DNA of 64,000 nt from Arthrobacter citreus (lineage in GTDB: Bacteria > Actinomycetota > Actinomycetes > Actinomycetales > Micrococcaceae), in assembly GCF_038405225.1 (NCBI RefSeq), contig NZ_CP151657.1, forward strand, positions 3,658,001 through 3,722,000. Reading direction: 5' to 3'. Each line of letters begins with the position of its first letter. Positions within the stretch are counted from its first letter, which is position 1. A program made the position numbers and the translations under genes. This document shows positions 14,548 to 33,256 of this stretch, in pieces. The notes beneath the pieces are model-generated. The model worked only from the letters and a program-made list of their open reading frames with translations, was not told where the DNA came from and searched no databases.

Positions 14548-15576
14548 TTAAGCCCCGGGAACCGGACCCGTGCTGCCCCGAACCTGCAGGGTGGTGGGAA
14601 AAACGGTCCCGGCCGCTGCACCGGATTCGACGGCCGTACCCTCCGCAGACGGATGCAGCATTTCGTGGAGCCGTTGCCAGGCCTGTTCTCCGAGCTCGTT
14701 GAGTGGCACCGTAGCCGTGGTCAGCGGAGGTGAGGTGTACGCGGAGAATTCAATGTCATCGAACCCAGTGACCGACATTTCGCCGGGTACTGAAACCTCC
14801 TGCTCATGCAGTCCGCTAAGCAGACCCATGGCCACCAGGTCATTGAACGCCAGAACGCCTGTGGCTTGGGTGGCCAGCACGTCGTGGACGGCACCGTGGC
14901 CCGATGCAAAACTCACGCCGCCGGGCAGGATCTGCAGACTGACCTCCGGATGTTCCGCCGTAAACTGCTCCAGCCCCTGCAGGCGCAGACGGTTGGACGC
15001 GCTGCTTTCGGGCCCGGAGAGGAAAACCAATTTGCGGTGTCCCTGGGCGAACAGGTGCTCGGCGAGGGCCCGGATCCCGTCGGCATAGTCCACCGTCAAG
15101 GTGGGAGCGGCGCCGGACAACGTCCGGTTGATGAGCACCATGGGCTGCAGGGTGGGGGCTAAAGCCTCGAGTTCCTCATCGCTCATGCGCGGAGCACAGA
15201 GGACGACGCCGTCGCCCCGCCGCCGCGCGTCGGAGGCCAGGACGTGCTCCTCGCTCGAGGTTTCCGACGAATCGGCGATCAGCACGCGGTATCCGTCCCG
15301 TGCGGCAGCCATGCTGACGCCGCGCAGCACGGCCTGGAACATCGGGTTGGCCAAATCGGGAACCAGGATGCCAATCGTCTCGCTCTTGCCCAGTGCCAGG
15401 CTGCGGCCCAGGGGGTTCGGGTGGTACTGCAGATCCTCGGCCGCTGCCCGGACCCGGGCCGCGATGCCACGGTCCACGGTAAAGCTCCCGTTCATGACGC
15501 GTGAGACAGTGGCGAGGGAAACGCCGGCCCTGCTGGCGACATCGGCAATTCCGATGCGGCGTGGCTGCTTTGTCAT
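14548..15576 (-). CDS. LacI family transcriptional regulator (island regulator 1)
   Basis: 342 residues. The LacI helix-turn-helix is clear: IADVASRAGVSLATVSRVMNG (about 9-30), then the YHPNPLGRSLALGKSETIGI hinge and a sugar-binding-protein-like domain. The recognition-helix residues, in SLATVSRVMNG, are almost the same as in the second LacI protein of this window (SLATASRVLNG), which is consistent with both proteins reading similar operators. It is divergent from an oxidoreductase-SDR-enolase operon with a LacI-type operator between them, so it most likely represses that operon and perhaps itself. Confidence 0.93.
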   Translation of the reverse strand: MTKQPRRIGIADVASRAGVSLATVSRVMNGSFTVDRGIAARVRAAAEDLQYHPNPLGRSLALGKSETIGILVPDLANPMFQAVLRGVSMAAARDGYRVLIADSSETSSEEHVLASDARRRGDGVVLCAPRMSDEELEALAPTLQPMVLINRTLSGAAPTLTVDYADGIRALAEHLFAQGHRKLVFLSGPESSASNRLRLQGLEQFTAEHPEVSLQILPGGVSFASGHGAVHDVLATQATGVLAFNDLVAMGLLSGLHEQEVSVPGEMSVTGFDDIEFSAYTSPPLTTATVPLNELGEQAWQRLHEMLHPSAEGTAVESGAAAGTVFPTTLQVRGSTGPVPGA

Positions 15577-15647
15577 TTGTGGGGCTGACCTCTCAGGGTG
15601 AATGGATCATTGACGCGGTCACTGCGGTTTGATAAGCATATGCCAGA

Positions 15648-15663
15648 GAGAAAGCGTTTTCTC
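15648..15663 (+). promoter_or_regulatory. LacI-type operator ahead of the 15.7-19.3 kb operon
   Basis: GAGAAAGCGTTTTCTC is a 16-bp palindrome centred on CG with one mismatched pair, the usual geometry of LacI-family operators. It lies 76 bp before the first gene of the operon and 72 bp before the divergent LacI gene. Its core is shared with sites at 22540, 28704 and 29973. Confidence 0.75.
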
Positions 15664-15738
15664 ATGCGGCCCGCCACCAGTCTTCAGGGCACTGCCCCGC
15701 GGTGCGGACACTTCCGCCCGCCCTCGAAAGGAATAGTC

Positions 15739-17163
15739 ATGACTCCCGCAGTTAGCAACGGCGCTACCTCCTCCGCCGAATCCACGTCCGGAGCCGCCGT
15801 GGAAGAACGGCCTGCCAAAGCCCGGCTGGCACTGGTGGGTACCGGCGCACGGTCGGAGATGTACATCCGCGCTGTCCTGACCGACCACGCTGATGCCGCC
15901 GAACTGGCAGGCCTGAGCGACGTCAACCCCGGCCGGGTGGAGTACTACCAGCGGCTCGTGAAGGAGATTGGTGCCGGTTCCGTGCAGGCACCCCAGGTGT
16001 TTGATCCTGCGGATCTTACGGCCTTTATCCGCGGCAACGGCATCACCCGCGTCATTATTACCACCCCCGATTACACTCACGCCGACTACGTGGTCGAAGC
16101 ACTGCACGCAGGTGCCGACGTGGTGGTGGAAAAGCCGCTGACGATCGACGCCGAGGGCTGCCGCCGCATCAACGAGGCCGTTGCCGAAACCGGCCGCAGC
16201 GTTGTGGTGACCTTCAACTACCGTTACTCCCCACGCAACAGCGCCCTGAAGGAGATCGTTTCCAGCGGTGTCATTGGGACCGTCACCTCCGTCGACTTCA
16301 CCTGGGTCCTGGACACCGTCCACGGTGCCGACTACTTCCGCCGCTGGCACCGCCAAAAGGAGAACTCCGGCGGTCTGCTGGTGCATAAGGCTTCCCACCA
16401 CTTTGACCTGGTGAACTGGTGGATTGATGATTCACCGGCGCGCGTTTATGCCTCCGGAGGGCTGCGGTTTTACGGAGCCGAGAACGCCGCGGGCCGCGGA
16501 CTGGGAGAGCGCCCCGAGCGCGGCACCGTTGACGCCGACACCAAGGATCCCTTTGCCCTGGACCTGCGGGACGATCCGCGGCTGCGGGAGCTGTACCTGG
16601 ACACCGAGCACCTGGACGGCTACCGCCGGGACCTGGACGTCTTTTCCGACGGCATCACCATCGAGGACAACCTGGCGCTGGTGGTGGATTACGACGGCGG
16701 CCCCACGCTCAGCTACTCGCTGAACGCCCACAGCCCGTGGGAGGGCTACCGCGTGGCCATCAACGGCACGGAAGGCCGCGCCGAACTCGAGGTGGTGGAG
16801 CGCGCCGCAGTCACCGGCAGCACCGACACCAAAAACGTCCTGGACCCCTCCGCAACACCCGTCACCGAGGATGACGCCGTGCGCGTGAACGGTGAACGCC
16901 TGGTGGTGCAGCGGCACTGGGAGCCGGCCTACGAAGTGCCGATTCTCAACGGCGCCGGCAGCCACGGCGGCGGCGACGCCCTCCTGCTCTCGGATCTGTT
17001 CAACGGACCCGGCGAGGATCCGCTGGGCCGGCCGTCCGGTTATCTGGACGGGCTGCGTGCCGTGGCCGTGGGAATCGCGGGGAATGAATCCCTGGCCACG
17101 GGACTGCCGGTGCGGATCAGCGAACTGGGCCTTGGCGCAGACCTCCGCCGGGATGCGCTCTAA
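15739..17163 (+). CDS. Gfo/Idh/MocA family oxidoreductase
   Basis: 474 residues. After a polar leader (about 30 residues) the Rossmann strand ALVGTGARSEMYIRAV binds NAD(P), and VVVEKPLTID carries the conserved EKP lysine; the C-terminal beta-sheet domain follows (TFNYRYSPRNSALKEI and HKASHHFDLVNWW). Length and motifs match the long Gfo/Idh/MocA proteins that oxidise sugar hydroxyls. The start ATG 15739 has GAAAGGAA upstream. The stop codon overlaps the next gene's ATG by one base, so the three-gene operon is translationally coupled. Substrate unknown. Confidence 0.92.
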   Translation: MTPAVSNGATSSAESTSGAAVEERPAKARLALVGTGARSEMYIRAVLTDHADAAELAGLSDVNPGRVEYYQRLVKEIGAGSVQAPQVFDPADLTAFIRGNGITRVIITTPDYTHADYVVEALHAGADVVVEKPLTIDAEGCRRINEAVAETGRSVVVTFNYRYSPRNSALKEIVSSGVIGTVTSVDFTWVLDTVHGADYFRRWHRQKENSGGLLVHKASHHFDLVNWWIDDSPARVYASGGLRFYGAENAAGRGLGERPERGTVDADTKDPFALDLRDDPRLRELYLDTEHLDGYRRDLDVFSDGITIEDNLALVVDYDGGPTLSYSLNAHSPWEGYRVAINGTEGRAELEVVERAAVTGSTDTKNVLDPSATPVTEDDAVRVNGERLVVQRHWEPAYEVPILNGAGSHGGGDALLLSDLFNGPGEDPLGRPSGYLDGLRAVAVGIAGNESLATGLPVRISELGLGADLRRDAL

Positions 17164-18182
17164 TGCGTGATGAGGCGGCAGGACCCAAGGAAACAGCCGC
17201 CCGCAGCAAGGGAGAGACGGCCCTGAATATGGAAGAAACCGCCCATAACAGGGAAAAGACAGCCCCGAACCGGGAAGTGGTGCTGGTGACCGGAGGCTCC
17301 GGACGGCTGGGCCGCAGCGTGGTCGCCGGACTCGCGGAAGCCGGCTACGCGGTCATTTCCGCGGACCGGGAGGCCCTCGCCGAGGTGGCCGACGGCGTCG
17401 TGCAGGAAGCGGTTGATTTGGCCGCCCCAGGCGAGGCGGCCCGCCTAATGGCCGCGTATGAACCCGACGCCGTGATTCATCTGGCCGCCATCGCGGTTCC
17501 GTTCAGCGCACCCGAAGACGTCATCCTGCAGACCAACGCCAAATTGGCGTTCGCGGTGCTCGAAGCGGCCACCAATGCCGGGGTGGAGCGCATCATCACC
17601 GCCAGCAGCCCCACAGTTCTGGGCTACGGTAACCCGGCGGGATGGCTGCCGGAACGGCTGCCGCTGGACGAGACCACCACGCCCCGGCCATGGAATGCCT
17701 ACGCCCTGTCCAAGCTGCTCGCGGAGCAGACCATGCAGATGTTCGCGGCCGCCAACGGGGAACGGATCCGGTATGCGGCCTTCCGGCCATGCTTCGTGAT
17801 TTCACCGGAGGAATGGGATGGCGCACCCACGCAGCAGGGGCACACCCTGTCTGAGCGCCTGCAGGATCCGGCGCTGTCCGCTCCAGCCCTGTTCAACTAT
17901 CTCGACGCACGGGACGCAGCCGATTTCCTGGTTGTCCTGCTGCGGAAACTGCCGGAAATCCCGAACGCGCAGGTCTTTTTCGTGGGCGCCGCCGATGCCC
18001 TGGCAGAGGCGCCGCTGGCCGAATTGCTGCCAAGGTTCGTGCCGGGAAGCGGGGACCTTGCCGCCGGCCTGACCGGTGCCTCGCCGGCCTTCTCCATCGA
18101 CAAGGCCCGGGACCTGCTGGGCTGGGAGCCGCGCCGGTCTTGGCGCTCAGAGCTGCGGGTCTGCTCGGAGAGCGCACAGTGA
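17163..18182 (+). CDS. NAD-dependent epimerase/dehydratase (extended SDR)
   Basis: 339 residues. VVLVTGGSGRLGRSVVAGL (about 38-56) is the TGxxGxxG NAD site of extended short-chain dehydrogenases, and YALSKLLAEQ provides the YxxxK catalytic pair (within PWNAYALSK). Such proteins epimerise, dehydrate or oxidise sugars or sugar acids. Residues 1-37 form a polar tail with three degenerate (E/K)TAxNxE units and are probably not part of the fold. It is flanked by coupled genes (TAATG before, GTGA after), so it should act in the same pathway as the oxidoreductase and the enolase-superfamily protein. Confidence 0.9.
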   Translation: MRDEAAGPKETAARSKGETALNMEETAHNREKTAPNREVVLVTGGSGRLGRSVVAGLAEAGYAVISADREALAEVADGVVQEAVDLAAPGEAARLMAAYEPDAVIHLAAIAVPFSAPEDVILQTNAKLAFAVLEAATNAGVERIITASSPTVLGYGNPAGWLPERLPLDETTTPRPWNAYALSKLLAEQTMQMFAAANGERIRYAAFRPCFVISPEEWDGAPTQQGHTLSERLQDPALSAPALFNYLDARDAADFLVVLLRKLPEIPNAQVFFVGAADALAEAPLAELLPRFVPGSGDLAAGLTGASPAFSIDKARDLLGWEPRRSWRSELRVCSESAQ

Positions 18183-19261
18183 CCGCTCCGAAGATCACCG
18201 GGCTGAGCACGCGCCTGCTGACGCTTCCGCTGCACCGGCCGTGGGGGGCCGGTGCAGCGGAGAACCACGTCATAGTCACCAAAATCGCCACCGAGGCCGG
18301 CACCGGTTACGGCTTCTCCTGGACGCCAACCATCGGGCCGCACGCCGTGCAGGCCCTGCTGGATCACGACATCAGGGAATTTGTGCTCGGCCGCCCGGCC
18401 GAGCCCGAGGTCCTGTGGGATCTCCTGTGGAAGCACCTGCACGAAGCCGGCGGCGGTGGACTGACCACCATAGCGATGGCCGGCGTCGATCTGGCGCTGT
18501 GGGACCTGCAGGCGCGGACCGCCGGGCGCTCCGTGGCCGACCACTTGGGCCGGCGGCACGAAAGCGCCGCCGTGTACGGGTCCGGAGTGAACCTGCACTA
18601 TTCCCAGGCGGAGCTGGTGGAGCAGGTTCAGCGCTGGGTTGCCGAGGGCAAGCAGGCCGTCAAAATCAAGGTGGGGAAACCTGACCTGGCCGAGGACGTT
18701 GACCGGGTGTCCGCGGTCCGCGACGTCCTGGGCCCGCACCGCAAACTCATGATCGACGCCAATCAGCGCTGGGACCTGCCCGCCGCGCTGCAGGCGGTGG
18801 AAGCGCTGACGCCCTTTGGCCTGGAATGGCTCGAGGAGCCGCTTCGTGCCGATGATCTGTGGGCCTACAAGCAGCTGCGCCGCAGCACCTCGGTGCCGAT
18901 AGCCCTGGGCGAGAACGTGCACAACATCTACCGGTTCCGCGACTTCATCACCGCCGGCGCCGTCGACGTCGTTCAGCCCAATATCGTCCGCGTCGGCGGA
19001 ATTACCCCGTTCCGCCGGATCGTGGAACTTGCCCGGACGCACAGCCTCAGGGTTGCTCCGCACCTGCTGCCGGAGCTGTCCGGACAGCTTGCGCTCACGC
19101 TGGCGGAACCGGTCTGGGTGGAAGACGTGGAAGACGCCTCGTTCGGCCAGTTGGGGGCGCTCCGGGCGGATGCGCCTGTGCGGATAGCCGGCGGCGTCCT
19201 GACGGCGTCCGGAACCCCGGGGCTGGGCCTGGACTTCGTCCACGCCATGCCCCGGGGCTAA
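18179..19261 (+). CDS. Enolase-superfamily sugar-acid dehydratase or racemase (MR/MLE type)
   Basis: 360 residues starting at GTG 18179, which overlaps the preceding TGA. The two-domain enolase-superfamily pattern is visible: KIKVGK (KxK base), DANQRWD and LEWLEEPL and ALGENVHN (three metal ligands D, E, E), and APHLLPELSGQL with the seventh-strand histidine. KxK together with this His is typical of the mandelate-racemase subgroup, which abstracts the alpha proton of a sugar acid, commonly dehydrating it to a 2-keto-3-deoxy acid. The neighbours (sugar oxidoreductase, SDR) suit a sugar-acid route. Exact substrate not assignable. Confidence 0.9.
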   Translation: MTAPKITGLSTRLLTLPLHRPWGAGAAENHVIVTKIATEAGTGYGFSWTPTIGPHAVQALLDHDIREFVLGRPAEPEVLWDLLWKHLHEAGGGGLTTIAMAGVDLALWDLQARTAGRSVADHLGRRHESAAVYGSGVNLHYSQAELVEQVQRWVAEGKQAVKIKVGKPDLAEDVDRVSAVRDVLGPHRKLMIDANQRWDLPAALQAVEALTPFGLEWLEEPLRADDLWAYKQLRRSTSVPIALGENVHNIYRFRDFITAGAVDVVQPNIVRVGGITPFRRIVELARTHSLRVAPHLLPELSGQLALTLAEPVWVEDVEDASFGQLGALRADAPVRIAGGVLTASGTPGLGLDFVHAMPRG

Positions 19262-19288
19262 GCAGCCCGGAGTCTCACCGGCCGGGAT

Positions 19289-19338
19289 CCCGAAAAGCGC
19301 TAGATACCGACGAGCGCGGGAGCCCGAAAAGCGCTAGA
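19289..19338 (+). repeat. Duplicated 16-bp segment at the 3' end of the M24 gene
   Basis: CCCGAAAAGCGCTAGA occurs at 19289-19304 and 19323-19338, between two convergent genes. The second copy contains the reverse-strand stop codon of the M24-type gene. Confidence 0.7.
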
Positions 19339-20443
19339 GCTCCAGGGTGGCCGGCCGCAACCGGCCGGCCACCGTGAAGGCGGGCCAGCGCTCGTCGATG
19401 CTCAGGGCCCTGATGCCGCCGTCCTCCAACAGGACGGTGTCCTCAACCTTCACCCCGGGGCCGGACGGATTCCAGGCAAAGGCCTGACGTGGAACGATGA
19501 CGTCATCCGTGGCTTCCGTGGCCCTCGGGTCCCTGCCGGAATAGCCGGCCGCACCGCCCTGATGATGCAGCCGCCACTGGTCCGAACCGAAACCATGCGT
19601 TTCATAGCCCGTGCGCAGCGCCTGCAGGACATCGGATAGCCGGGCACCCGGAACGGTGGCGGCAAAGGCTGCCGCTTCCACCTCGGCGATGCGGGCCTCG
19701 CCGTCGGCCTCCGCCGCATCGGCCGGACCAAACCGCACCCAGCGGGTGACATTGGCGATCAACCCGTCGCGCCGTGCACAGACAACAGCCATGGCGCGGC
19801 GTCCCAGCGGAGCGTCAGTGGGCAGCGGGTGCCGGTATTCGGCGCGGGAAGCGCCGCTGCACAGCAGCACCACCGGGTCCGCGCCGATTTCGACCAGCCG
19901 TCCGGCCAGCCCGGCGGCGACCTGCCGCTCGGTCATCTGCGGCTCCGCAACGGCAAGGACATCCGTCAGGACCGCGGCCGCATCCCGTGACAGCTCTTCA
20001 TACCGTGCAGTTTCGGCCGGCAGCAGGGACCGGCGGGCATCCCGCAGTTCCCGGGCCACATCAGCCTCCATCATCGGTGGTCCGTCGCCCTCAAACCAGT
20101 CCGCGGTTTGGTGAAGATTGGCATACCAGGGCAGCTCCAGCAGCGCCATGCCCTCGGGCACCTCCTCGGCCGCCAGCCGTTCCGCCTCGTTGTTGAAGGT
20201 GACCATATGATCGCCGTCGCGCTCCACGAGCACTGCGGCCACCGGGTCTCCGGCGAGGCTGATGTGCACGCGGCTGCCGTCCAGGTACCAGGACAGCGCG
20301 GCCTGCGAGGTCAACAGCACTGACTCAGCTTCCGCGCGGTCCAGGATGTCCAGGACGCGGCGTCGCTTGACCCGCCGGTCAGCGGCCGACGACGGCGGGA
20401 CGCGGCGGGCAGCCGTGGCAGCCTCCGGAAGGATGCCGGTCAT
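19334..20443 (-). CDS. Divergent M24 (Xaa-Pro aminopeptidase-like) protein
   Basis: 369 residues from ATG 20443, which overlaps the stop of the upstream oxidoreductase gene. A creatinase-N-like first half (LLTSQAALSWYLDGSR) is followed by a pita-bread domain (GADPVVLLCSGASRAEYRHP). Where M24 peptidases have two metal-binding aspartates (D-x-G...SDxTR), this protein has VVCARRDGLIANVTRWVR; the first Asp is lost and the second is Asn. The later His (RLHHQGG) and Glu (VKVEDTV) remain. It may be a metal-independent enzyme like creatinase, or a non-peptidase. Position at the end of a sugar operon suggests a carbon-nitrogen or ester bond in the substrate. Confidence 0.8.
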   Translation of the reverse strand: MTGILPEAATAARRVPPSSAADRRVKRRRVLDILDRAEAESVLLTSQAALSWYLDGSRVHISLAGDPVAAVLVERDGDHMVTFNNEAERLAAEEVPEGMALLELPWYANLHQTADWFEGDGPPMMEADVARELRDARRSLLPAETARYEELSRDAAAVLTDVLAVAEPQMTERQVAAGLAGRLVEIGADPVVLLCSGASRAEYRHPLPTDAPLGRRAMAVVCARRDGLIANVTRWVRFGPADAAEADGEARIAEVEAAAFAATVPGARLSDVLQALRTGYETHGFGSDQWRLHHQGGAAGYSGRDPRATEATDDVIVPRQAFAWNPSGPGVKVEDTVLLEDGGIRALSIDERWPAFTVAGRLRPATLEL

Positions 20444-22494
20444 CGGACCGCTCCCTGCGCCTGGAGGTCTGCCACCAGCCGGGCCACGCCGTCGTCGTCC
20501 ACCCGTCCGTCCACGACCACCACGCTCACCGAGCGGGAGATGGGAGCGGAGGAAGAGGTCCGGACCGGGGTATCCCAGGCCAGGGACAGACCCACCCCGG
20601 GATAACCGCTGCAGCGGACAAACCACGGGTCGTCTTCCTGCGGATCCGGCACGAACACCAGGGTTGCCGGTCCGTCGGGGAACTGAGCGGTCCAAGCCAG
20701 CCACGGGGCGATGCTGCCGTGCACCGCGTCCTCGCCCTCGGCGTCCGCCGTGCGCACCCGCACGTCCGTGCAGGCCGGAAGGCGCCAGAAGAACCCGCCG
20801 TACCCGCCGCCGTCGCGCCCGTTGGATCCGGGGCTGCCCAGCAGTACCGGGTCCGAGGCCGCCGTCAGCGTGAAGTTCAGGTCAAGCAGCCAGCTGTCCC
20901 CGTCCAATTCCGTGAAGTGCCAGTTCCGCTGTTCCGTCAGCAGCACGCTGCCATCCGGTCCGCACCATTCCAGGGCCTGGGCCAGGGCGTTGGGCGACGC
21001 ATCGGTTTCGCGGTCCCTGATGTGCCCGTGGTCATCGCGCCACACATACCCCGCAGCTTCCCGGCGGTAGGTGCGGCCGCCCCAGAAATTCACGCCGTTG
21101 ACATCCTGCAGGGTTACCCCGGCGCCGAGGTGCCACACGTGATCGGACGGGAGATGGTCGGTGACCTGCACGCCGGACAACGTGGTGACCGGATGCAGGT
21201 AGGGGCGCGGAGATGCGTCGGCCCGGATGCCGTCACCGGAGCGAAGCTCGGCCACGGTGGACCCGGCCAGGACAAATGATTCGGCCGGTGCCACGGGGCG
21301 GGCCCACGGCACCAGCAGTTCGCTGAACGTTGATTGGGACCGGACGGCACGCAGGATGATGTCTTCGATGCCGTGGATCACCGGGTGGGCTGCTCCGCCA
21401 CTGCCCACCCACGTGACGTGGCTGTCGCTGATCGGATGGACCGGGCCGGCGCTGCGCACTGCTTCCAGCACGGTCATGAAAGCGCCGGAGTCGGCCAGCG
21501 AGCTCAGCAGCGGCGTGCCGTTCCGCCGGTGGTCCAGGAGGTTCTCCAGCAGATCGGTCCGGGCATGGGTGCTTCGGGATGTGCCGGCTGCCGTGGTCAG
21601 TTCCAGCTCGTCGGTGGTGTAGGAAAGGACAGCCTGGCCCTGTGTGCCGTGCACCGTGACCAGCGGTTCCTTCTGTTCGGGAGCGCAAACAGTCAGCGCG
21701 CACATGATGGTTGTCCCGGCGCCGGTGCGCAGCCGGACCACCGACGTGTCATCACCCTCAATGTCATGGGCGCGGTAGGCATCCACTTCCACGCTGTCGA
21801 CGTCGGATGTTCCACGGGCGCCGCCAATGCGCAGCGCGGTGGCAACCGCGTGGGCCAGGGGATTGGTGATGACCCCGTCCACCACGTCCACGCCGTCCAG
21901 GATCCGTTTTCCGGCCCAGCGGGAGCGGTTGAAGTAGTCCCGGTCCCGCACCCACAGCCCGGTGGCCGAGATGCCGCGCACCGTGCCCAGTTCTCCCCGT
22001 CCGATGGTCCCGGCGAGGACGTCCAGGGCCTTGGAGCCCAGGCTCTGAAACCCCACCTGGACTGCGCGCCCGGTCCGTTCCGACACTGCCAGGATCCGGT
22101 GGTACTGCTCCATGGACGCCGCCGCCGGCTTTTCCAGATAAACATCGGCACCGGCTTCGAGGGCCGCAACGGCAAGGTCGGCATGGGTGTGGATGGGGGT
22201 GGCGATGATGACGACGTCCGGTGCGGTTCCAGCCGAAAGCAGCTCCTGCGCGGTGTCGAACACGGCAACTGACGGATCCAGCTCGCCCGGCTCCGGGGGC
22301 CGCGGGTCGGCCACGGCGGCCAGCGTCAGCACCCCTGACGCCTCCAGATGGCGCAGCCGCTGCAGGTGGCGCGCGCCGAAACCATGGATTCCCACCAGGG
22401 CGATCCGGGGAAGGGCACCGGGACTGCCGGAGTTCCGGGAGCTGCGGGAAGTGACCGGGGCGGGGGATGGGTGCTGCTCAGGATGGGGCGTCAA
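20440..22494 (-). CDS. Gfo/Idh/MocA oxidoreductase fused to DUF6807 (PmoA-like) domain
   Basis: 684 residues, two modules. Residues about 29-370 are a Gfo/Idh/MocA oxidoreductase (ALVGIHGFGARHLQRL cofactor strand, VYLEKPAAASM lysine motif). Residues about 400-675 match the PmoA-like/DUF6807 family: RPYLHPVTTLSGVQVTD, DHVWHLGAGVTLQDVNGVNF, TEQRNWHFTELD. These domains are usually separate neighbouring genes, so the fusion suggests they act on the same sugar. The start is TTG 22494 with weak GGAAA upstream; no better start exists in frame. A LacI-type operator lies 46 bp upstream, inside the previous gene. Confidence 0.88.
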   Translation of the reverse strand: MTPHPEQHPSPAPVTSRSSRNSGSPGALPRIALVGIHGFGARHLQRLRHLEASGVLTLAAVADPRPPEPGELDPSVAVFDTAQELLSAGTAPDVVIIATPIHTHADLAVAALEAGADVYLEKPAAASMEQYHRILAVSERTGRAVQVGFQSLGSKALDVLAGTIGRGELGTVRGISATGLWVRDRDYFNRSRWAGKRILDGVDVVDGVITNPLAHAVATALRIGGARGTSDVDSVEVDAYRAHDIEGDDTSVVRLRTGAGTTIMCALTVCAPEQKEPLVTVHGTQGQAVLSYTTDELELTTAAGTSRSTHARTDLLENLLDHRRNGTPLLSSLADSGAFMTVLEAVRSAGPVHPISDSHVTWVGSGGAAHPVIHGIEDIILRAVRSQSTFSELLVPWARPVAPAESFVLAGSTVAELRSGDGIRADASPRPYLHPVTTLSGVQVTDHLPSDHVWHLGAGVTLQDVNGVNFWGGRTYRREAAGYVWRDDHGHIRDRETDASPNALAQALEWCGPDGSVLLTEQRNWHFTELDGDSWLLDLNFTLTAASDPVLLGSPGSNGRDGGGYGGFFWRLPACTDVRVRTADAEGEDAVHGSIAPWLAWTAQFPDGPATLVFVPDPQEDDPWFVRCSGYPGVGLSLAWDTPVRTSSSAPISRSVSVVVVDGRVDDDGVARLVADLQAQGAVR

Positions 22495-26621: not shown

Positions 26622-26714
26622 TGAATGCTTCCTGTCGGATGGGGAGGTGCGGTCGGTGATGGACGGTTTCGCCGAACAACTTTCCGGCTGGTGGTGCGGT
26701 TACTCGTGGTGCGT

Positions 26715-27641
26715 TTACTTGCCGCCGGTGGTGGCGATGCCCTTGACCAGGTACTTCTGTCCGAAGAGGAAGACCAGGAAGACGGGCAGGAGGGAGACAA
26801 TCGACATGGCAAACATGGATCCCCATGAAGACGTGGCCGTTGAGTCGTTGAAGGAGCGCAGCGCCACCGGAACCGTGTACATGTCCGGATCCGTCAGGAA
26901 GATCAGCTGGCTGAAGAAGTCGTTCCAGGTCCAGATGAAGGTGAAGATGGCCGTGGTGGCCAGGGCGGGCATCATCAGGGGCAGGATGATCTTCGTGAAG
27001 ATCCGCACGTGGCCGCAGCCGTCAATGCGCGCCGCCTCGTCCAATTCCCGGGGCAGGCCGCGGATGAACTGGACCATGAGGAACACGAAGAACGCGTCGG
27101 TGGCCAGGAGCTTGGGCAGGATCAGCGGAATGAAGGTGTTCACCCAGCCGAGCTGAGAGAAAATGATGTACTGCGGAACGATCACCACATGGATCGGCAG
27201 CATCACCGTCATGAGCATGATCGCAAAAAGCAGGTTGCGCTTGCGGAACCGAAGGCGGGCGAAGGCATAGGCGGCCATGGAGCAGGAGATCAGGTTGCCG
27301 GCAATGGATCCGAACACGATGATCAGCGAGTTCATCATGTAATGGCCGAAGGGGGAGCGCAACGCGTTCCAGCCCTCCGTGTAGTTGGAGAATTCGAACG
27401 TGGTCAGCAGCAGGCCCGACTGCCGGAAGATTTCGTTGTTGGGCCGCAGGGAGCTGACAAGCATCCACAGCAGCGGGTACAGCATTATCAGGCCGAAGAC
27501 AATCAGCACGATGTGCTTGAGGAGGCGTGAACCGCTGCCCTTGCGGTTGCGGTTACGGGGAGTGGCGCGGCGTGCGGGGCGGAGTCCGGTGGCTGCACCG
27601 GGGGGAACTGCTGTGGCCGCGGCTTCTGTGTTAGTCGTCAT
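26715..27641 (-). CDS. Sugar ABC transporter permease (MalG/AraQ type)
   Basis: 308 residues with six membrane helices after a basic N-terminus. The conserved EAA loop near the C-terminal third (RELDEAARIDGCGHVRIFTKIILPLMMP) is the docking site for the ATPase and identifies a carbohydrate uptake-1 permease. The start overlaps the end of the first permease gene by 11 bp. No ATP-binding subunit is encoded anywhere in this region; in actinobacteria such importers usually borrow a shared MsiK/UgpC-type ATPase encoded elsewhere. Confidence 0.95.
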   Translation of the reverse strand: MTTNTEAAATAVPPGAATGLRPARRATPRNRNRKGSGSRLLKHIVLIVFGLIMLYPLLWMLVSSLRPNNEIFRQSGLLLTTFEFSNYTEGWNALRSPFGHYMMNSLIIVFGSIAGNLISCSMAAYAFARLRFRKRNLLFAIMLMTVMLPIHVVIVPQYIIFSQLGWVNTFIPLILPKLLATDAFFVFLMVQFIRGLPRELDEAARIDGCGHVRIFTKIILPLMMPALATTAIFTFIWTWNDFFSQLIFLTDPDMYTVPVALRSFNDSTATSSWGSMFAMSIVSLLPVFLVFLFGQKYLVKGIATTGGK

Positions 27642-28575
27642 AGAACACCCAGAACTTCGAAGCCATGAAGTTGATCAGCGTGAAGATGGCGATGATCACC
27701 AGCAGGAGCCAGGCCATGGCGGACGCATAGCCCATGTCGAAGTTTCCGAAGCCTTTCTGGTAGAGGTACAGCGTGTAGAACATGGTGGAGTCGGCGGGGC
27801 CCCCGGTTCCGCCCGAGACCACGAAGGCCTGGGTGAAGGACTGGAAGGCGCCGATGATCTGCAGCACCAGGTTGAAGAAGATGATCGGTGTCAGCAGGGG
27901 GATCGTGATGGTCCACAGCTGGCGGAGCTTGGAGGCGCCGTCCATGGACGCGGCCTCGTAGTACATGACCGGAATTTGGCGCAGCCCGGCGAGGAAGATG
28001 ATCATGGGAGCGCCGAAGGTCCAGATGTTGAGGATCATCAGGGTGCCCAGAGCGGTGGACGGGTCTGAAATCCAGCCCTGGCCCTGGATTCCGAAGAACC
28101 CGAGGACCTGGTTGATCAGGCCCTCGGTGCCGAAGATCTGGCGCCACAGAACGGCGATGGCTACCGAGCCGCCCAGCAGGGACGGCAGGTAGTAGATGGA
28201 GCGGTACAGGTTCATGCCGCGGAGCCCGCGGTCCAGAACCAGTGCCAGGACCAGGGCTGCCAGCAACTGGAGAGGGACGGAGATAAACACGAACAGGAAT
28301 GTCACCTTGAGCGAGTTCAGCAGCCGTGCATCGTCCATCATGCGGGTGAAGTTCTCCAGGCCGGTCCATTGCGGCGGCTGGAGCATGTTGTAGTCAGTGA
28401 AGGACAAATACAGCGAAGCCGCCATGGGGCCAATGGTGATGGCCACCAGGCCCACGATCCACGGGCTCAGGAACAGGAAGCCTGCCCGCTCCTCCTGCTT
28501 TTCGGCCCGGGTCAGCTTGCGTTTGACAGTACCTTTGGATCGTTTCAGGCTGGATAGCTCACTCAGTACCGACAT
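27631..28575 (-). CDS. Sugar ABC transporter permease (MalF/UgpA type)
   Basis: 314 residues, six helices, cytoplasmic basic N-terminus (KRSKGTVKRKLTRAEKQEE). The EAA loop YYEAASMDGASKLRQLWTIT is followed by IPLLTPIIFFN. It is the first gene of the importer operon and pairs with the overlapping second permease. AAAGGA six bases before ATG 28575 is a good ribosome site. A LacI-type operator lies 128 bp upstream. The downstream operon order is permease, permease, binding protein 1, binding protein 2, esterase, fused oxidoreductase, M24 protein. Confidence 0.95.
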   Translation of the reverse strand: MSVLSELSSLKRSKGTVKRKLTRAEKQEERAGFLFLSPWIVGLVAITIGPMAASLYLSFTDYNMLQPPQWTGLENFTRMMDDARLLNSLKVTFLFVFISVPLQLLAALVLALVLDRGLRGMNLYRSIYYLPSLLGGSVAIAVLWRQIFGTEGLINQVLGFFGIQGQGWISDPSTALGTLMILNIWTFGAPMIIFLAGLRQIPVMYYEAASMDGASKLRQLWTITIPLLTPIIFFNLVLQIIGAFQSFTQAFVVSGGTGGPADSTMFYTLYLYQKGFGNFDMGYASAMAWLLLVIIAIFTLINFMASKFWVFYDD

Positions 28576-28703
28576 GGCTGTCCTTTACTGCCGGTACGCT
28601 GCCGGGCCTCGCGGGGAACCGCATCGTTGCGGAAGGGCACGGGTTGCATTCCGTTTCTCCGTTTCTCGTAGGGCGTCTGCTCCGAACTCCTGAGAGCATA
28701 CGT

Positions 28704-28719
28704 GAGAAAGCGGTTTCCC
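28704..28719 (-). promoter_or_regulatory. LacI-type operator ahead of the ABC importer operon
   Basis: GAGAAAGCGGTTTCCC, centred on CG, lies between the LacI gene and the first permease gene, 129-144 bp before the permease start. It differs from the site inside the esterase gene at one base and from the 15648 site at two. Confidence 0.75.
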
Positions 28720-28809
28720 GAAACCCCTCTTTGTGCACTGCGTCACATCGGCTGCGCTGCGTGTCATGTTGGCGAACGGCTGCGGATTCCTCCGGCAGCC
28801 CCGCCGCGG

Positions 28810-29883
28810 TTAGGACGTTTCGGTGCTGTGGCGCAGGATGATGTGCCCCTGGGCCACGAAAGGATCCTGTGGCGGGTCCTCGGCCAGGACCCGGGCCACG
28901 GCCTCGCTGCCGAGGCTCGAGAGCGGCAGCTGCGCCGTCGTCAGGGCCGGGGTGAAGTCGCGCAGCGTCTCGATATCGTCAAAACCCGCCACTGCAACAT
29001 CCTCGGGAATGCGCAGTCCGTGTTCCCGCAGGCCAGCGATCGCTCCGATCGCCATCACATCGCTGGCTGCGAAGACACAGACGGCCGGCCCGTCGCCGGC
29101 GCCGGTCCGGGCGGAGGGCGTTCCGGAGTTCAGATCCTCTGCCAGCGTGACCGCGGCGTCGTATCCGCCGTCACGGTTGAACCCGGTGCGGCGCACCTCT
29201 GCGGGATCCAGTCCGGCTTGCTTCAACCCTTCCTGGAAGCCGGCCAGGCGTTCATCGGATGTCACCAGGCCCTCGGGTCCGGCCAGAATCAGGAAGCGGC
29301 GATGGCCGGCACAGGCAAGATCTGCGGCGAGTTGAAGGCTCAGCTGCCGGTTGGGCACTGGGACGGTATGGAAGCCGTCGTCGGGCACCGAGCCCACCAC
29401 CGGCTGCCCGATCACCGCCACCTTGCCGCCGTTGGCCTTATAGCGCCGCAGTTCGGTGAGCAGCAGTTCATTTTCGCCGGCGGCCTTCTCGGTGTCGGTG
29501 CGGGTGCCGGCAATGACAATGGCATCGGCACGCCGTGCGGCAAAGGTGGCGACGGCGCGGCGCTCGCTGGCGGGCCCGCCGCCGGTGCTGGCCAGCAGGA
29601 CCACCTTCTGCTGATCCTGGACGGACCCCTGGACCCCGCGCGCAATCGTGGAGAAGTAGGGGTCGCTGATGTCGTGCAGGATCAGCCCCAGCATCCCGCT
29701 GTTTTTCTTGGCCAGGCCCTGGGCCTGTGCATTGGCGATGTAGCCGAGTTCCGCCGCGGAGGCTTTGACCCGTTCGGAGATTGCATCGCCGGGGCGGCGG
29801 CTGGAGCCGTTGAGAACCCGTGATGCGGTGGCCAGGGAAACCCCGGCATGGCGGGCTACTTCATACAAGGTGCAAGCGGGCAC
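28810..29883 (-). CDS. LacI family transcriptional regulator (island regulator 2)
   Basis: 357 residues from GTG 29883, chosen because GGAGG sits five bases before it; an earlier in-frame ATG at 29910 lacks a site. The helix-turn-helix is TLYEVARHAGVSLATASRVLNG (about 5-26), followed by the hinge (AELGYIANAQAQGLAKKNSG) and an effector domain with RVLILAG-like strands typical of sugar responders. It sits between the importer operon and the divergent oxidoreductase-DUF993 operon, both of which have matching operators, so it probably controls both directions. Confidence 0.93.
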   Translation of the reverse strand: MPACTLYEVARHAGVSLATASRVLNGSSRRPGDAISERVKASAAELGYIANAQAQGLAKKNSGMLGLILHDISDPYFSTIARGVQGSVQDQQKVVLLASTGGGPASERRAVATFAARRADAIVIAGTRTDTEKAAGENELLLTELRRYKANGGKVAVIGQPVVGSVPDDGFHTVPVPNRQLSLQLAADLACAGHRRFLILAGPEGLVTSDERLAGFQEGLKQAGLDPAEVRRTGFNRDGGYDAAVTLAEDLNSGTPSARTGAGDGPAVCVFAASDVMAIGAIAGLREHGLRIPEDVAVAGFDDIETLRDFTPALTTAQLPLSSLGSEAVARVLAEDPPQDPFVAQGHIILRHSTETS

Positions 29884-29972
29884 GGTTCCTCCACGGTAGT
29901 CAGACGGCAATTATGGCACCCCCTGGAAAGTGCTTGCCAGAACCCGCAAGCTGGGGCAGGATGGGACCTGTC

Positions 29973-29988
29973 CGGAATGCGCTTTCCC
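29973..29988 (+). promoter_or_regulatory. LacI-type operator ahead of the oxidoreductase-DUF993 operon
   Basis: CGGAATGCGCTTTCCC (reverse complement begins GGGAAAGCG) is a palindrome with central CG and one mismatch in its inner 14 bases, 34-49 bp before ATG 30022. A weaker relative, TGGAAAGTGCTTGCCA at 29924-29939, lies nearer the divergent LacI gene and may serve autoregulation. Confidence 0.65.
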
Positions 29989-30021
29989 GCATTTCCCCAC
30001 CAGTCAATGGAGACCGACCCC

Positions 30022-31200
30022 ATGGAGAACACCCCCGCCAAGCCCCGGACCATCCGGATTGCCATGAACGGCATCACCGGACGGATGGGCTACCGCCAGC
30101 ACCTGCTGCGCTCGATCCTGCCCATCGTCGAAGCCGGAGGCTTCCTGCTGGAAGACGGCACGCGGGTTCAGGTGGAGCCCATCCTGGTGGGCCGCAACGA
30201 AGCCAAGCTCCGCGAACTGGCCGAAAAGCACAAGGTTTCGGAATGGACCACGGATCTGGACGCCGTAATCGCCGATCCCACCGTCGACGTCGTTTTTGAT
30301 GCTTCGATGACCAACCTCCGCGCCGCCACGCTGAAGAAGGCCATGCTCGCGGGCAAGCACATCTTCACGGAAAAGCCCACGGCGGAGACCCTGGAGGAGG
30401 CCATCGAACTGGCCCGCATCGGCCGCGAAACCGGGGTTACGGCAGGCGTTGTGCATGACAAGCTGTACCTGCCGGGGCTGGTCAAGCTCCGCCGCCTGGT
30501 TGACGAAGGGTTCTTTGGACGCATCCTCTCCATCCGCGGCGAATTCGGCTACTGGGTTTTTGAGGGCGACCACCAGGCGGCCCAGCGCCCGTCCTGGAAC
30601 TACCGCAAGGAGGACGGCGGCGGCATGGCCACTGACATGTTCTGCCACTGGAGCTACGTGCTCGAAGGCATCATTGGCAAGGTCCGCACGGTCAATGCCA
30701 AGACGGTCACCCACATTCCCACCCGCTGGGACGAGGACAGCCACGAATACGCTGCAACGGCAGACGACGCCGCCTACGGCATCTTTGAACTGGAAACCCC
30801 GGCCGGGGATCCCGTGGTTGGCCAGATCAATTCCTCCTGGGCCGTGCGCGTGTACCGCGATGAGCTGGTGGAGTTCCAGGTGGACGGCACGCACGGATCC
30901 GCCGTTGCCGGGCTGAACAAGTGCGTGTCCCAGCACCGGGTCAACACGCCCAAGCCCGTATGGAACCCGGACCTGCCGGTCACCGAATCCTTCCGCAGTC
31001 AGTGGCAGGAAGTGCCCGCCAACGCGGAACTGGACAACGGATTCAAGCTGCAGTGGGAAGAATTCCTGCGCGACGTCGTCGCCGGCCGGGAGCACCGCTT
31101 TGGCCTGCTGTCCGCGGCCCGCGGCGTGCAGCTGGCCGAACTTGGCCTGCAGTCCTCCGCGGAGCGGCGCACCCTGGACATCGAGGAGATCACCCTCTGA
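30022..31200 (+). CDS. Gfo/Idh/MocA family oxidoreductase
   Basis: 392 residues. RIAMNGITGRMGYRQHLLRS is an unusual cofactor strand (NGxTGRMGY instead of GxGxxG), and HIFTEKPTAETLEEA holds the catalytic lysine motif. HDKLYLPGLVKLRRL and FCHWSYVLEG belong to the substrate domain. ATG 30022 is chosen over 30007 because GGAG lies nine bases before it. It is the first gene of a coupled three-gene operon (ATG of the next gene overlaps the TGA). With the DUF993 and TIM-barrel partners this arrangement suggests oxidation of a sugar followed by carbon-bond cleavage or isomerisation. Confidence 0.9.
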   Translation: MENTPAKPRTIRIAMNGITGRMGYRQHLLRSILPIVEAGGFLLEDGTRVQVEPILVGRNEAKLRELAEKHKVSEWTTDLDAVIADPTVDVVFDASMTNLRAATLKKAMLAGKHIFTEKPTAETLEEAIELARIGRETGVTAGVVHDKLYLPGLVKLRRLVDEGFFGRILSIRGEFGYWVFEGDHQAAQRPSWNYRKEDGGGMATDMFCHWSYVLEGIIGKVRTVNAKTVTHIPTRWDEDSHEYAATADDAAYGIFELETPAGDPVVGQINSSWAVRVYRDELVEFQVDGTHGSAVAGLNKCVSQHRVNTPKPVWNPDLPVTESFRSQWQEVPANAELDNGFKLQWEEFLRDVVAGREHRFGLLSAARGVQLAELGLQSSAERRTLDIEEITL

Positions 31201-32414
31201 TGGCAGAGCTAACGCTGCCCGCCGACGACGGCGGCACCCGTGCGTACACCACCGCGCCGGCCATGGTGTGGAACCGCCCGACGGCGCCGCTTCAGGCCCG
31301 CCGCGCTTATGCCGCCGCGCACGTCATTCCACGGACCACCGGAAACAATGTTCCCGGCGCACCCGCGGACATGGACTGGGATGCGACGCTGGGCTACCGG
31401 CACGAACTGTGGTCCTACGGACTGGGCGTCGCCGACGCAATGGACACCGCACAGCGCGGGATGGGCCTGGACTGGGCCGCGACCCAGGAACTGATCAAGC
31501 GCTCCGCCGCCGAGGCTGCGTCAGTGGCAGCCTCGGGTGCTCCCGCCGTCGCGGGCAAAACGGTCCGTGACCTGATTGCGGCCGGAGCCGGTACCGATCA
31601 CCTGGACCTGGCCGCGCTGCCCTCGGGACGGGCCGGCGTGGATGCCGTCCTGGCCGCATACCGCGAACAGATTTCAGTGGTTGAGGGTTCCGGCGCCAAG
31701 GTCATCCTGATGGCCTCGCGCGCCCTGGCCCGGGTGGCGTCCGGGCCGGAGGATTACCTCCGGGTGTACTCCACCCTGCTGGATGAGGTCAGCGAACCGG
31801 TCATCCTGCACTGGCTGGGCGACATGTTTGACCCGGCGCTTGCCGGTTACTGGGGCGGGGCTGACGTGGACGCCGCCACTGCCACCTTCCGGGAGCTGAT
31901 CGAAGGGTCCGCGGCGAAGGTTGACGGCGTGAAGGTGTCGCTGCTGGATGCCGCCCATGAGAAGGCACTGCGCGCGGCGCTGCCCGAAGGAGTCCGCCTG
32001 TACACCGGAGATGACTTCAACTATCCGGAACTGATAGACGGCGACGGCACGCACTATTCCGACGCCCTGCTGGGGATTTTTGCGGCCATCTATCCCGCGG
32101 CGTCAGTGGCGCTGCAGAAGTACGACGCCGGCCGGCCGGCGGAGGCGCGGGCCATCCTGGACTCCACGCGGGAGCTTGGCCTGCACATCTTCAGCGCCCC
32201 CACGTTCTACTACAAGACCGGCATTGCCTTCATGTCCTGGCTCAACGGCCGGCAGCCCGGCTTCTCCATGGTGGGCGGGCTGCAGAACGGCCGGTCCGTC
32301 CCGCATTTGGTGCGGACCTTTGAGCTGGCGGACAAGGCGGGCCTGCTCGCCGATCCGGACCTCGCGGCGGCACGGATGCGTTCCTGGCTGAGCGTGAACG
32401 GAGTGGGAGCATGA
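31200..32414 (+). CDS. DUF993 family protein (aldolase-like TIM barrel)
   Basis: 404 residues matching the DUF993 family, which is distantly like dihydrodipicolinate-synthase-type aldolases. Supporting stretches are VILMASRALARVASGPEDY, EPVILHWLGDMFDPALAGYW, VDGVKVSLLDAAHEKALR (with a Lys where Schiff-base aldolases have theirs, an inference only), GDDFNYPELIDGDGTHYSDA and TFYYKTGIAFMSWLNG. No biochemical role is established that I know of. It overlaps the preceding oxidoreductase by one base and the following isomerase by four, so the three proteins must be made together. Confidence 0.88.
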   Translation: MAELTLPADDGGTRAYTTAPAMVWNRPTAPLQARRAYAAAHVIPRTTGNNVPGAPADMDWDATLGYRHELWSYGLGVADAMDTAQRGMGLDWAATQELIKRSAAEAASVAASGAPAVAGKTVRDLIAAGAGTDHLDLAALPSGRAGVDAVLAAYREQISVVEGSGAKVILMASRALARVASGPEDYLRVYSTLLDEVSEPVILHWLGDMFDPALAGYWGGADVDAATATFRELIEGSAAKVDGVKVSLLDAAHEKALRAALPEGVRLYTGDDFNYPELIDGDGTHYSDALLGIFAAIYPAASVALQKYDAGRPAEARAILDSTRELGLHIFSAPTFYYKTGIAFMSWLNGRQPGFSMVGGLQNGRSVPHLVRTFELADKAGLLADPDLAAARMRSWLSVNGVGA

Positions 32415-33256
32415 GTGATTTCTCGCGGCTGTCCCTGAACAGCGCCACCACTAAGTACTGGACCCTGGAGCAGGTGATCGACGGCTGCGTGCGCACCGGC
32501 ATCCCGGCGATCGGCCCCTGGCGGGACCGGGTGGCTGAGGTGGGCACGGAACGGGCGGCGAAACTCATCAGCAATGCCGGGCTGCGGGTGTCATCCCTGT
32601 GCCGCGGCGGATTCCTGACCGCCTCGGACCAGGAGGGCCGCGAGGCCGCCGTGCAGGACAACCGGGCAGCCATTCTGGAGGCCGAAATCCTGGGGACGGG
32701 GGAGCTGTTCCTGGTGGTCGGCGGGCTTCCTGCCGGAGACAGGGACATTGTTGCGGCCCGGCAGCGGGTGGCGGACAGGCTCGGGGAACTCGTTCCCTTT
32801 GCCACGGAGCACGGGGTGCGCCTGGTACTGGAACCGCTGCATCCCATGTATGCCGCGGACCGGGCACTGCTGTCCACCCTGGGGCAGGCGCTGGACCTGG
32901 CGGCGCCATACCCGGCCGCCGCCGTCGGCGTGGCAGTGGACACCTTCCATGTGTGGTGGGATCCGCAGCTGCGGGAGCAAATTGCGCGTGCCGGCCGGGA
33001 AAACCGGATTGCGTCCTATCAGGTCTGTGACTTCAACATGCCGATCGCGGCCGATGCGCTGCTCTCGCGCGGAATCATGGGCGACGGCGTGATCGACTTT
33101 GCCACGATCACCGGCTGGGTGGCGGACGCCGGCTACACCGGCGACATTGAGGTGGAGATCTTCAACCAGCAGATCTGGGACAACCCCGGCGACGAACTCC
33201 TGGAGACCATCAAGAACCGGTACGCCTCACTGGTGCTGCCCTGGGCCAAGAGGTAA
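32411..33256 (+). CDS. Sugar phosphate isomerase/epimerase-like TIM barrel (AP-endonuclease-2 fold)
   Basis: 281 residues. The xylose-isomerase-like barrel shows its metal residues in order: VRLVLEPLHP (Glu), GVAVDTFHVWWDP (Asp and His), YQVCDFN (Asp) and DIEVEIFNQQIW (Glu). Proteins of this fold isomerise or epimerise sugars and, in related gene clusters, eliminate aglycones from 3-keto-glycosides. It is the last gene of the oxidoreductase-DUF993 operon (ATGA overlap), so its substrate is probably the product of one of those enzymes. Confidence 0.9.
   Translation: MSDFSRLSLNSATTKYWTLEQVIDGCVRTGIPAIGPWRDRVAEVGTERAAKLISNAGLRVSSLCRGGFLTASDQEGREAAVQDNRAAILEAEILGTGELFLVVGGLPAGDRDIVAARQRVADRLGELVPFATEHGVRLVLEPLHPMYAADRALLSTLGQALDLAAPYPAAAVGVAVDTFHVWWDPQLREQIARAGRENRIASYQVCDFNMPIAADALLSRGIMGDGVIDFATITGWVADAGYTGDIEVEIFNQQIWDNPGDELLETIKNRYASLVLPWAKR

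Follow-up and report, generated by a model that had tools for sequence, protein, structure and literature searches.

Several described systems for the oxidative breakdown of carbohydrates resemble parts of the locus reported here. The oxidative hexuronate pathway of Agrobacterium runs through Udh, Gci, KdgD and KGSA dehydrogenase, in the order of steps given in the available sections of PMC6353982. Operons for 3-keto glycoside elimination, described for levoglucosan, for the C-glycoside puerarin and for Agrobacterium AtOGE, combine oxidoreductases with isomerase-like barrels in the accessible text of PMC10628242, and NAD-dependent Gfo/Idh/MocA glycosidases make up families GH188 and GH109. In this study, a window of 64,000 nt from Arthrobacter citreus (NZ_CP151657.1, GCF_038405225.1, forward-strand positions 3,658,001-3,722,000; the host genome is a single contig of 3.88 Mb) was analysed, and all coordinates below are those of this whole stretch unless a locus or genome is named. 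We provide evidence that the feature at 14548..33256 holds about fifteen co-controlled genes, very probably a single regulon, built around a triad of genes for an oxidoreductase (GfoC), a DUF993 protein and an isomerase-like barrel (TIM).

The GfoC-DUF993-TIM triad is an almost invariant and widespread core. Its genes overlap end to end on the plus strand and code for a Gfo/Idh/MocA oxidoreductase of 3OQB type (GfoC, 30022..31200), a class I aldolase-like protein of DHDPS/NAL fold (DUF993, 31200..32414) and a xylose-isomerase-like barrel of 3JU2/3QC0/7VPF type (TIM, 32411..33256), GfoC and TIM being assigned from Pfam, profiles and relatives' loci and DUF993 from Pfam (577 bits), a structure model and an alignment. 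At least 591 DUF993-encoding stretches were confirmed in one public genome collection, and of the 80 best-scoring of these, which were named and lean towards actinobacteria, 79 had a GfoC match and 78 a TIM match. GfoC lies directly upstream of DUF993 on the same strand in 78 of the 80, TIM directly downstream in 78, and both in 77; the exceptions are a locus with GfoC in two pieces (L130), one that ends near the expected TIM (L135) and one with neither partner (L126). A LacI2-like gene occurs within the stretch in 67/80 at E 1e-12 and in 46/80 at stricter limits, LacI being a large family. By genome, DUF993 is present in 6 of 39 relatives, in 29 of 396 genomes from the phylum at large and in none of 14 control genomes.

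The structure model of DUF993 (pLDDT 94.8) points to an aldolase. Its nearest match is 4DNH, followed by dihydrodipicolinate synthases and sialic-acid lyases; the other 49 matches listed are all of DHDPS/NAL type, from E 4e-9, and against the listed entries of this type the TM score by target is 0.67-0.85, as for a shared (beta/alpha)8 fold. According to the fold model and the alignment, DUF993 has a lysine in strand 6, where DHDPS/NAL enzymes carry the Schiff-base lysine: K245 is invariant in 46/46 sequences and lies in the barrel strand 241-247, by our count number six of eight, and we take it to correspond to DHDPS K161, the Schiff-base position of these enzymes. DUF993 is thus quite likely a Schiff-base lyase, and because of this aldolase fold and the invariant lysine, we infer that its three enzymes oxidise a second sugar (beside a uronate, see below), isomerise it and split it in a retro-aldol reaction, towards glycerate.

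A quite unlikely alternative is that the enolase-superfamily protein of the cluster (MR) dehydrates an aldonate or aldarate and that DUF993 is a keto-deoxy-acid aldolase releasing pyruvate and a C3 aldehyde that leads to glycerate, after the model of the GarD-GarL-GarR-GarK route. Consistent with this, an enolase-superfamily gene (MR_MLE_C, 45 bits) stands directly before GfoC-DUF993-TIM in Nitratireductor, with a tripartite tricarboxylate transporter nearby, a gene annotated as enolase takes the same place before the triad in Chelatococcus, and several loci have glycerate kinase after the triad. However, the Chelatococcus 'enolase' gave no Pfam match at 1e-10, an MR-like gene was seen in just 7/109 triad stretches, and two actinobacterial loci discussed below (L053 and L054) also carry KdgD, a consumer of the same keto-deoxy acid. 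Moreover, DUF993 reads AMDTAQRGMG, with small changes among sequences, at the place where GTTGE, the pyruvate-carboxylate motif of DHDPS, would be expected, and it was therefore not filed as a pyruvate-type aldolase.

Glycerate kinase would provide the exit of the retro-aldol route. Its gene lies within 12 of 109 triad stretches and in none of 40 control pieces (20 kb each and chosen arbitrarily, two per genome from 20 genomes with DUF993, a small sample), eight of the 12 being on the triad strand; it comes right after TIM, by distance, in five of the 109 loci (L051, L052, L105, L112, L116) and also follows TIM in Glaciihabitans (L069). Rhizobial plasmids including pSymA carry a DUF993 gene, which together with the number of DUF993 stretches suggests that the triad is a common pathway of soil bacteria. 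On rhizobial and Paracoccus plasmids, clusters L067, L070, L073 and L180 have DUF993 and TIM with an SDR replacing GfoC, and all four hold CoA-transferase, enoyl-CoA hydratase, acyl-CoA dehydrogenase, electron-transfer flavoprotein and GMC oxidoreductase genes; the annotation gives three of them ADH and aldehyde dehydrogenase (ALDH) genes and three a glycerate kinase. In S. meliloti, SMc04132 (the 4DNH protein), SMc04133, 04135, 04138 and 04139 are listed in one table as regulated genes, in the accessible part of PMC12542648. Text searches found no paper on the function of DUF993, and combined pathway terms gave no match in the literature.

The initial annotation had seen in oxidoreductase plus barrel the core of a 3-keto-sugar route, by analogy with levoglucosan or 3-keto-glucoside catabolism. 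This analogy was not supported: both proteins belong to a separate triad with the aldolase-fold DUF993, and a hexuronate-oxidation signature marks the remaining genes. Its remark that the DUF993, DUF6807-fusion and M24 parts fit no pathway still applies to M24, whereas DUF993 has gained a fold and conserved partners, and in several relatives DUF6807 has a gene of its own next to that of GfoB. A levoglucosan-type or 3-keto-glucoside route, with GfoC as 3-dehydrogenase and TIM as eliminating enzyme, is in our judgement very unlikely. The best solved match of GfoC after 3OQB is 6A3F, which we take to be levoglucosan dehydrogenase, and its best NCBIfam model is likewise levoglucosan dehydrogenase; the pairing of oxidoreductases with isomerase-like barrels in known operons fits as well. 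However, GfoC reaches 73.6 bits against a cut-off of 650 (GfoA 60.8, GfoB 35.9), the nearest matches of TIM are 3JU2, 3QC0 and 7VPF, and the operons, so far as the available text of PMC10628242 presents them, have none of DUF993, KdgD and glycerate kinase among their named partners. The levoglucosan pathway was thus rejected as the core, on cut-offs and partner genes.

The second line of evidence is a shared operator. An intergenic palindrome scan gave three related sites, also recovered by pattern and matrix: GAGAAAGCGTTTTCTC at 15648..15663, between the divergent LacI1 and GfoA genes, GAGAAAGCGGTTTCCC at 28704..28719, before the importer operon, and CGGAATGCGCTTTCCC at 29973..29988, between the divergent LacI2 and GfoC genes. 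A matrix made from those three placed a fourth site, GAGAAAGCGGTTTCCG at 22540..22555, third overall in the window with a score of 21.9 (best in five shuffled windows, 17.1); it lies 46 bases before the gene of the GfoB-DUF6807 fusion, within the 3' end of the esterase gene. Up to three mismatches to GAGAAAGCGNTTTCYC were allowed in a further count, which gave 9 window matches (five places, four of which count on both strands) where 2.2 were expected, and 0 of 100 shuffles reached 9. The pattern SRGAAWGCGNTTTCYS, written after the four sites were known and fitted to them, has zero-mismatch sites in the whole genome only at the four operators, and at one mismatch gives 15 rows over both strands genome-wide, against four for a backward-read control pattern. 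Beyond A. citreus, a site scoring >8 precedes GfoC in 95 of 108 related loci (110 were given, two being dropped for want of a GfoC match) and is found in 23 of 1080 random 270-base control stretches.

The initial annotation had listed an importer without ATPase, three Gfo/Idh/MocA oxidoreductases, an enolase-superfamily protein, an SDR, an esterase, an M24 protein, DUF993 and a barrel, all of which are present, and its two LacI regulators with shared operators are real (sites 15648, 28704 and 29973). Its three operons share operators as claimed, and the fourth operator raises their number to four candidate transcription units, each preceded by a putative LacI-type operator. By sequence, a LacI regulator adjoins a palindromic operator common to all units, as expected of a LacI-family regulon. 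Together with relatives that hold a single cluster, this supports the claim of one undescribed co-regulated carbohydrate-oxidation regulon, and since the operator is shared and such relatives exist, a response of the operons to unrelated sugars seems less likely. Both regulators are coded on the minus strand, LacI1 at 14548..15576 (Pfam LacI and Peripla_BP_3) and LacI2, of the kind common beside the triad, at 28810..29910 (Pfam, relatives' loci). Their recognition-helix regions are nearly the same (SLATVSRVMNG and SLATASRVLNG), and one relative (L237) has a LacI1 relative and three operator matches of the same type with no DUF993 match within its 20 kb; LacI1 and LacI2 may thus both read one operator sequence.

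Two operator-like sites with one mismatch, at genome positions 2,711,158 and 2,711,281, are 123 bases apart. They sit between a GH42 beta-galactosidase gene (Pfam) and an orphan solute-binding-protein (SBP) gene whose product is 63% identical to SBP1 of the cluster (L171:6000-9688, genome about 2,709,000-2,712,700), and this gene pair may belong to the regulon.

Gene neighbourhoods in relatives bear on whether the regulon serves one purpose. L053 and L054, from the same phylum as A. citreus and another class, hold a single cluster with LacI2, DUF6807, GfoB, PermF, PermG, SBP, GfoA, GfoC, DUF993, TIM, SDR, KdgD, MR, ALDH and glycerate kinase, and since such distant actinobacteria keep most genes in one cluster, the genes probably serve one programme. 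Nocardiopsis (L139) has GfoC-DUF993-TIM-KdgD-MR in one run, and overlapping gene subsets were found in L058, L061, L093, L094, L096, L108, L129, L139 and L144 (gene calls in unannotated loci came from simple scripts, and some genes were missed, for example in L093). At genome level, GfoA at E 1e-100 or better occurs in 5 of 6 DUF993-positive and 2 of 33 DUF993-negative genomes (Fisher p = 2e-4, the Fisher tests taking genomes as independent, with G000 and G010 congeners). Within the genus, DUF993 is present in 3/25 genomes and GfoA in 2/29. Set A of the triad stretches, compared with the 40 control pieces, gave p 0.004-0.044 for GfoA, GfoB, PermG, PermF and glycerate kinase.

The same comparison also supplies the case for two programmes under one operator, in which an older LacI2-triad unit for one sugar has been joined by a separable uronide cassette (LacI1 to the importer), LacI1 reading the same operator and the halves degrading different co-occurring compounds. 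The congener G013 has a LysR gene, about 40 bases, then LacI2 and the triad, with no cassette genes in its 20 kb and no GfoA match at E 1e-100 in its genome, and in G010, also a congener, the cluster is complete and so is its set of four operators. Of 109 triad stretches, 15 contain one or more of the six families GfoA, SDR, MR, KdgD, GfoB/DUF6807 and M24, and in the other 94 none was found, therefore the reaction of the triad need not concern the same molecule as that of the cassette. L237 shows the converse, a uronide cassette with LacI1, and the near-identity of the recognition helices fits a second regulator reading the first one's sites. Nevertheless, both halves stand in one cluster in L053, L054 and L139, and genomes with DUF993 tend to have GfoA as well. 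We regard two programmes as unlikely and continue with a single programme.

The cassette points to uronic acids. GfoA (15739..17163), an extended, uronate-dehydrogenase-like SDR (17163..18182, start possibly further in) and MR, an MR-group enolase-superfamily acid-sugar dehydratase or cycloisomerase (18179..19261), form one plus-strand unit of overlapping or abutting genes, assigned from Pfam with profile searches of solved structures and, for MR, curated models. In the SDR profile search 4ID9 comes first, and the uronate dehydrogenases 6MFH, 3AY3 and 3RFT rank 2, 3 and 5 at 5e-18 to 7e-16. The best curated model of MR is TalGalacDh (talarate/galactarate dehydratase), at 226 bits against a cut-off of 500; its nearest solved chains are 2OVL and anhydrogalactonate cycloisomerase, with 4GGB/4HPN, which we take to be Gci, only twelfth in the match list, and its alignment keeps KxK, D, E, E and H, presumably the residues expected for the MR group. 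Outside the window, KdgD (5-dehydro-4-deoxyglucarate dehydratase) is coded in the same genome by a copy above both NCBIfam cut-offs, in a row with ALDH and a glucarate-dehydratase-like gene (790 bits, cut-off 829) at about 2.507-2.511 Mb. KdgD lies in the same stretch in L053, L054, L058, L096, L108, L129, L139, L144 and L237, the L054 protein scoring above the NCBIfam subfamily and below the equivalog cut-off. For KGSA dehydrogenase, the ALDH genes near KdgD fall below equivalog cut-offs, and the ALDH of A. citreus itself had no match at 1e-60. The genome also has two glycerate kinase genes and gave no match for UxaC. The SDR and MR genes look like the start of an oxidative hexuronate pathway, and a uronate module is, in our assessment, reasonably probable.

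GfoA and the GfoB-DUF6807 fusion (20440..22494, minus strand; Pfam, relatives' loci, structure model) may act before this module. Pfam scans found no classical glycosidase among the cluster genes. Among solved profiles GfoA ranks 8QC2 first, then 4HKT, an inositol 2-dehydrogenase, WlbA 3Q2K, 8QC3 and, fifth, the glucuronide-3-dehydrogenase 8TDI; 8QC2 and 8QC3 are structures of the GH188 NAD-dependent sulfoquinovosidase in the accessible text of PMC10755693. GfoB has DgpA2, WlbA and 8TDI as structural neighbours, together with inositol dehydrogenases; the fusion model is weak (pLDDT 76.9, 9 sequences), and among the matches listed all are Gfo-type entries. GfoB and DUF6807 are two adjacent genes in L053, L054, L109, L139 and L237. 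We infer a part for GfoA and GfoB in uronide cleavage, whether as the cleaving enzymes or as helpers, Gfo-based bond cleavage having in our view slightly less than an even chance.

Under the name DUF6807 the domain was found in one paper, within a count of DUF numbers. As PF14100 it was used as a model for the methane oxygenase PmoA in a metatranscriptome study (PMC10291797, in the part available), and the accessible text of PMC5342196 has PF14100 next to an enolase-superfamily gene in a possible lactose-utilisation operon. This operon and the sugar-cluster context here suggest that PF14100 is misleading as a methane-oxygenase marker.

Relatives of GfoA indicate where the uronides might come from. 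Eleven GfoA matches were obtained, seven covered by six fetched stretches (L237-L242), those of A. citreus, G010 and G262 also seen and G037 left out. All six stretches carry importer genes, L239 with a MalK-type ATPase gene, and three have rhamnogalacturonan, rhamnose or uronate genes: L238 a PL11 rhamnogalacturonan lyase and RhaM (rhamnose mutarotase), L241 PL11 and GDSL, and L240 GH106, GH78 (alpha-L-rhamnosidase among these relatives' genes) and glucuronate isomerase. No such genes were recognised in the part of the genes scanned in L239 and L242, and L237 has GH42 and AXE1 with SDR, KdgD, MR, M24 and split GfoB/DUF6807. The genome of A. citreus itself gave no match for GH88/105, PL11 or GH28, so that the pectin link rests on the relatives, and an unsaturated rhamnogalacturonan route was rejected for this genome; a rhamnose mutarotase gene lies far from the cluster, at 1,136,405. 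Beside solute-binding-protein genes, L173:14084-16231 and L242:10519-12693 code for 715- and 724-residue proteins that are 55% identical and have no Pfam match at 1e-5, possibly an unnamed glycosidase family.

The remaining genes of the cluster lie on the minus strand, with PermF (27631..28575), PermG (26715..27641), SBP1 (25314..26621), SBP2 (23878..25182) and an esterase-like alpha/beta-hydrolase (22527..23726; Pfam AXE1 and Abhydrolase_7, both barely above cut-off) in series. PermF and PermG are ABC permeases (Pfam), and SBP1 and SBP2 are ABC solute-binding proteins (Pfam, pairwise identity), a tandem duplication 87% identical. No ATPase was found among the cluster genes scanned; MalK/UgpC-like ATPase genes sit elsewhere in the genome (the best 52-54% identical to a rhizobial one), and an importer without its own ATPase thus seems ordinary. 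The gene of the M24-fold protein (19334..20443; Pfam and a 4-sequence alignment) overlaps that of the GfoB-DUF6807 fusion and adjoins it in five relatives (L093, L094, L096, L222, L237). Canonical M24 metallopeptidases have five metal ligands, D, D, H, E and E. As the initial annotation had noted, the protein is altered, several canonical ligands being replaced: SDITR reads ANVTR, EPG reads NPS, and the Glu of VEDT is kept. With Asn for the Asp of SDITR and NPS for EPG, the four aligned sequences do not have the full ligand set of an M24 metallopeptidase. Creatinase offers an analogue for a metal-free hydrolase of M24 fold, and a creatinase-like metal-free hydrolase is a possibility here.

Taken together, we tentatively propose that a single regulon under LacI control serves the use of small uronic-acid glycosides of plant origin, by a chain that as a whole is possible without being probable. 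The substrates would be galacturonosyl or glucuronosyl fragments bearing acyl groups, such as rhamnogalacturonan I or arabinogalactan could yield, pectin or arabinogalactan being a conceivable source that we suggest with equal reserve. They would be taken up by the ABC importer with an ATPase coded elsewhere (step 1) and lose the acyl group to the alpha/beta-hydrolase (step 2), whereupon GfoA and GfoB-DUF6807, in place of a classical glycosidase, would oxidise C3 with NAD and open the glycosidic bond by elimination (step 3). The freed uronate would become an aldarolactone by SDR and a keto-deoxy acid by MR, which KdgD and aldehyde dehydrogenase, coded elsewhere in the genome, would convert to 2-ketoglutarate (step 4). 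The second sugar would be oxidised by GfoC, isomerised or epimerised by TIM and cleaved by DUF993, with a lysine Schiff base as intermediate, to give a C3 compound; this would be turned into glycerate and phosphorylated by glycerate kinase (step 5). Gene content supports step 4, and gene association, with the fold of DUF993, supports step 5.

Several observations weigh against this chain. The match of GfoA to GH188 is limited to profile positions 4-217 of 452, and lacking full-length similarity GfoA was not filed as a GH188 member; its second match is the inositol dehydrogenase 4HKT. The SDR is outranked by 4ID9, which we take to be uncharacterised, and SDR and MR score below every listed NCBIfam equivalog cut-off, leaving no Udh assignment. 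FlSqgA, of GH188, did not cleave 4-nitrophenyl beta-glucuronide in the available text of PMC10755693. The M24 protein has no role in the scheme, and the clusters of L053 and L054 are without M24, esterase and LacI1; these two are also among the 13 loci without a site upstream of GfoC, which lies mid-cluster there. Besides the 94 triad stretches without uronide families, the comparison of set A with the controls gave p = 0.07 each for SDR, MR and KdgD and p = 1 for M24. Glycerate kinase is on the opposite strand in four of the 12 loci, the acyl-CoA genes of the rhizobial clusters are unexplained by the scheme, and a pectin origin would need scavenging, since the genome has no PL11 or GH28 match. 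Enzyme roles throughout are predictions from sequence, fold and gene context.

Even so, with an operator, near-invariant partners, a likely exit gene and an aldolase fold now named, the function of the triad should be testable with few assays. The broadest reading, somewhat unlikely as a whole, is that the triad with glycerate kinase forms an undescribed, widespread, non-phosphorylating pathway in which a free sugar or sugar acid is turned into a keto-sugar by oxidation, epimerised and split by a new type of Schiff-base aldolase acting on a keto-sugar rather than a pyruvate-type acid, with glycerate as exit, joined here to glycosidase-free uronide catabolism by oxidation and elimination on one Gfo-DUF6807 chain. 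If it is true that Gfo-type enzymes replace glycosidases for uronides, annotation of actinobacterial pectin and arabinogalactan breakdown misses a route.

Some neighbouring features were noted in passing. NmrA-like and FAD-monooxygenase-like genes (33585-35616) separate TIM from an SMP-30 gene, and the pair looks inserted because the congeners L036 and L037 have the SMP-30 gene directly after TIM. A LysR-type regulator (13307-14491) has in-frame short repeats NGSNGSNG and AGQG/SHAGQG, and a tmRNA gene lies at 47805-48175 (tag AKPMRTDFALAA).

Compared with known systems, the cluster resembles the oxidative hexuronate pathway of Agrobacterium in having an SDR and an MR-group gene, along with KdgD and aldehyde dehydrogenase genes that lie in relatives' clusters and elsewhere in this genome, where no uronate isomerase match was obtained. 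However, the SDR family, at 302-339 residues, is about 30-70 longer than solved Udh chains (267-275), the SDR is below all equivalog cut-offs, and its neighbours here are genes of a sugar importer, of two more Gfo proteins and of the DUF993 triad. The likeness to the glycosidases of GH188 and GH109 is the best solved match of GfoA, together with the closeness in fold of GfoB to WlbA and glucuronide-3-dehydrogenase, which act on uronic-acid sugars; in contrast, the match of GfoA is confined to the N-terminal half, and GfoB carries DUF6807. The 3-keto glycoside elimination operons, of which the BT_2158/BT_2159 type is a further example, differ in that the barrel is here tied to DUF993 and GfoC, with its closest relatives in 3JU2, 3QC0 and 7VPF, and the window cluster is without a second xylose-isomerase-like barrel. 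The direct relatives of DUF993, TIM and GfoC are the structural-genomics entries 4DNH (SMc04132), 3JU2 (SMc04130) and 3OQB, listed with no function given, as hypothetical, uncharacterised or plain oxidoreductase. Half of the regulon would thus be a new arrangement of known chemistry, and the DUF993 triad would be its new part.

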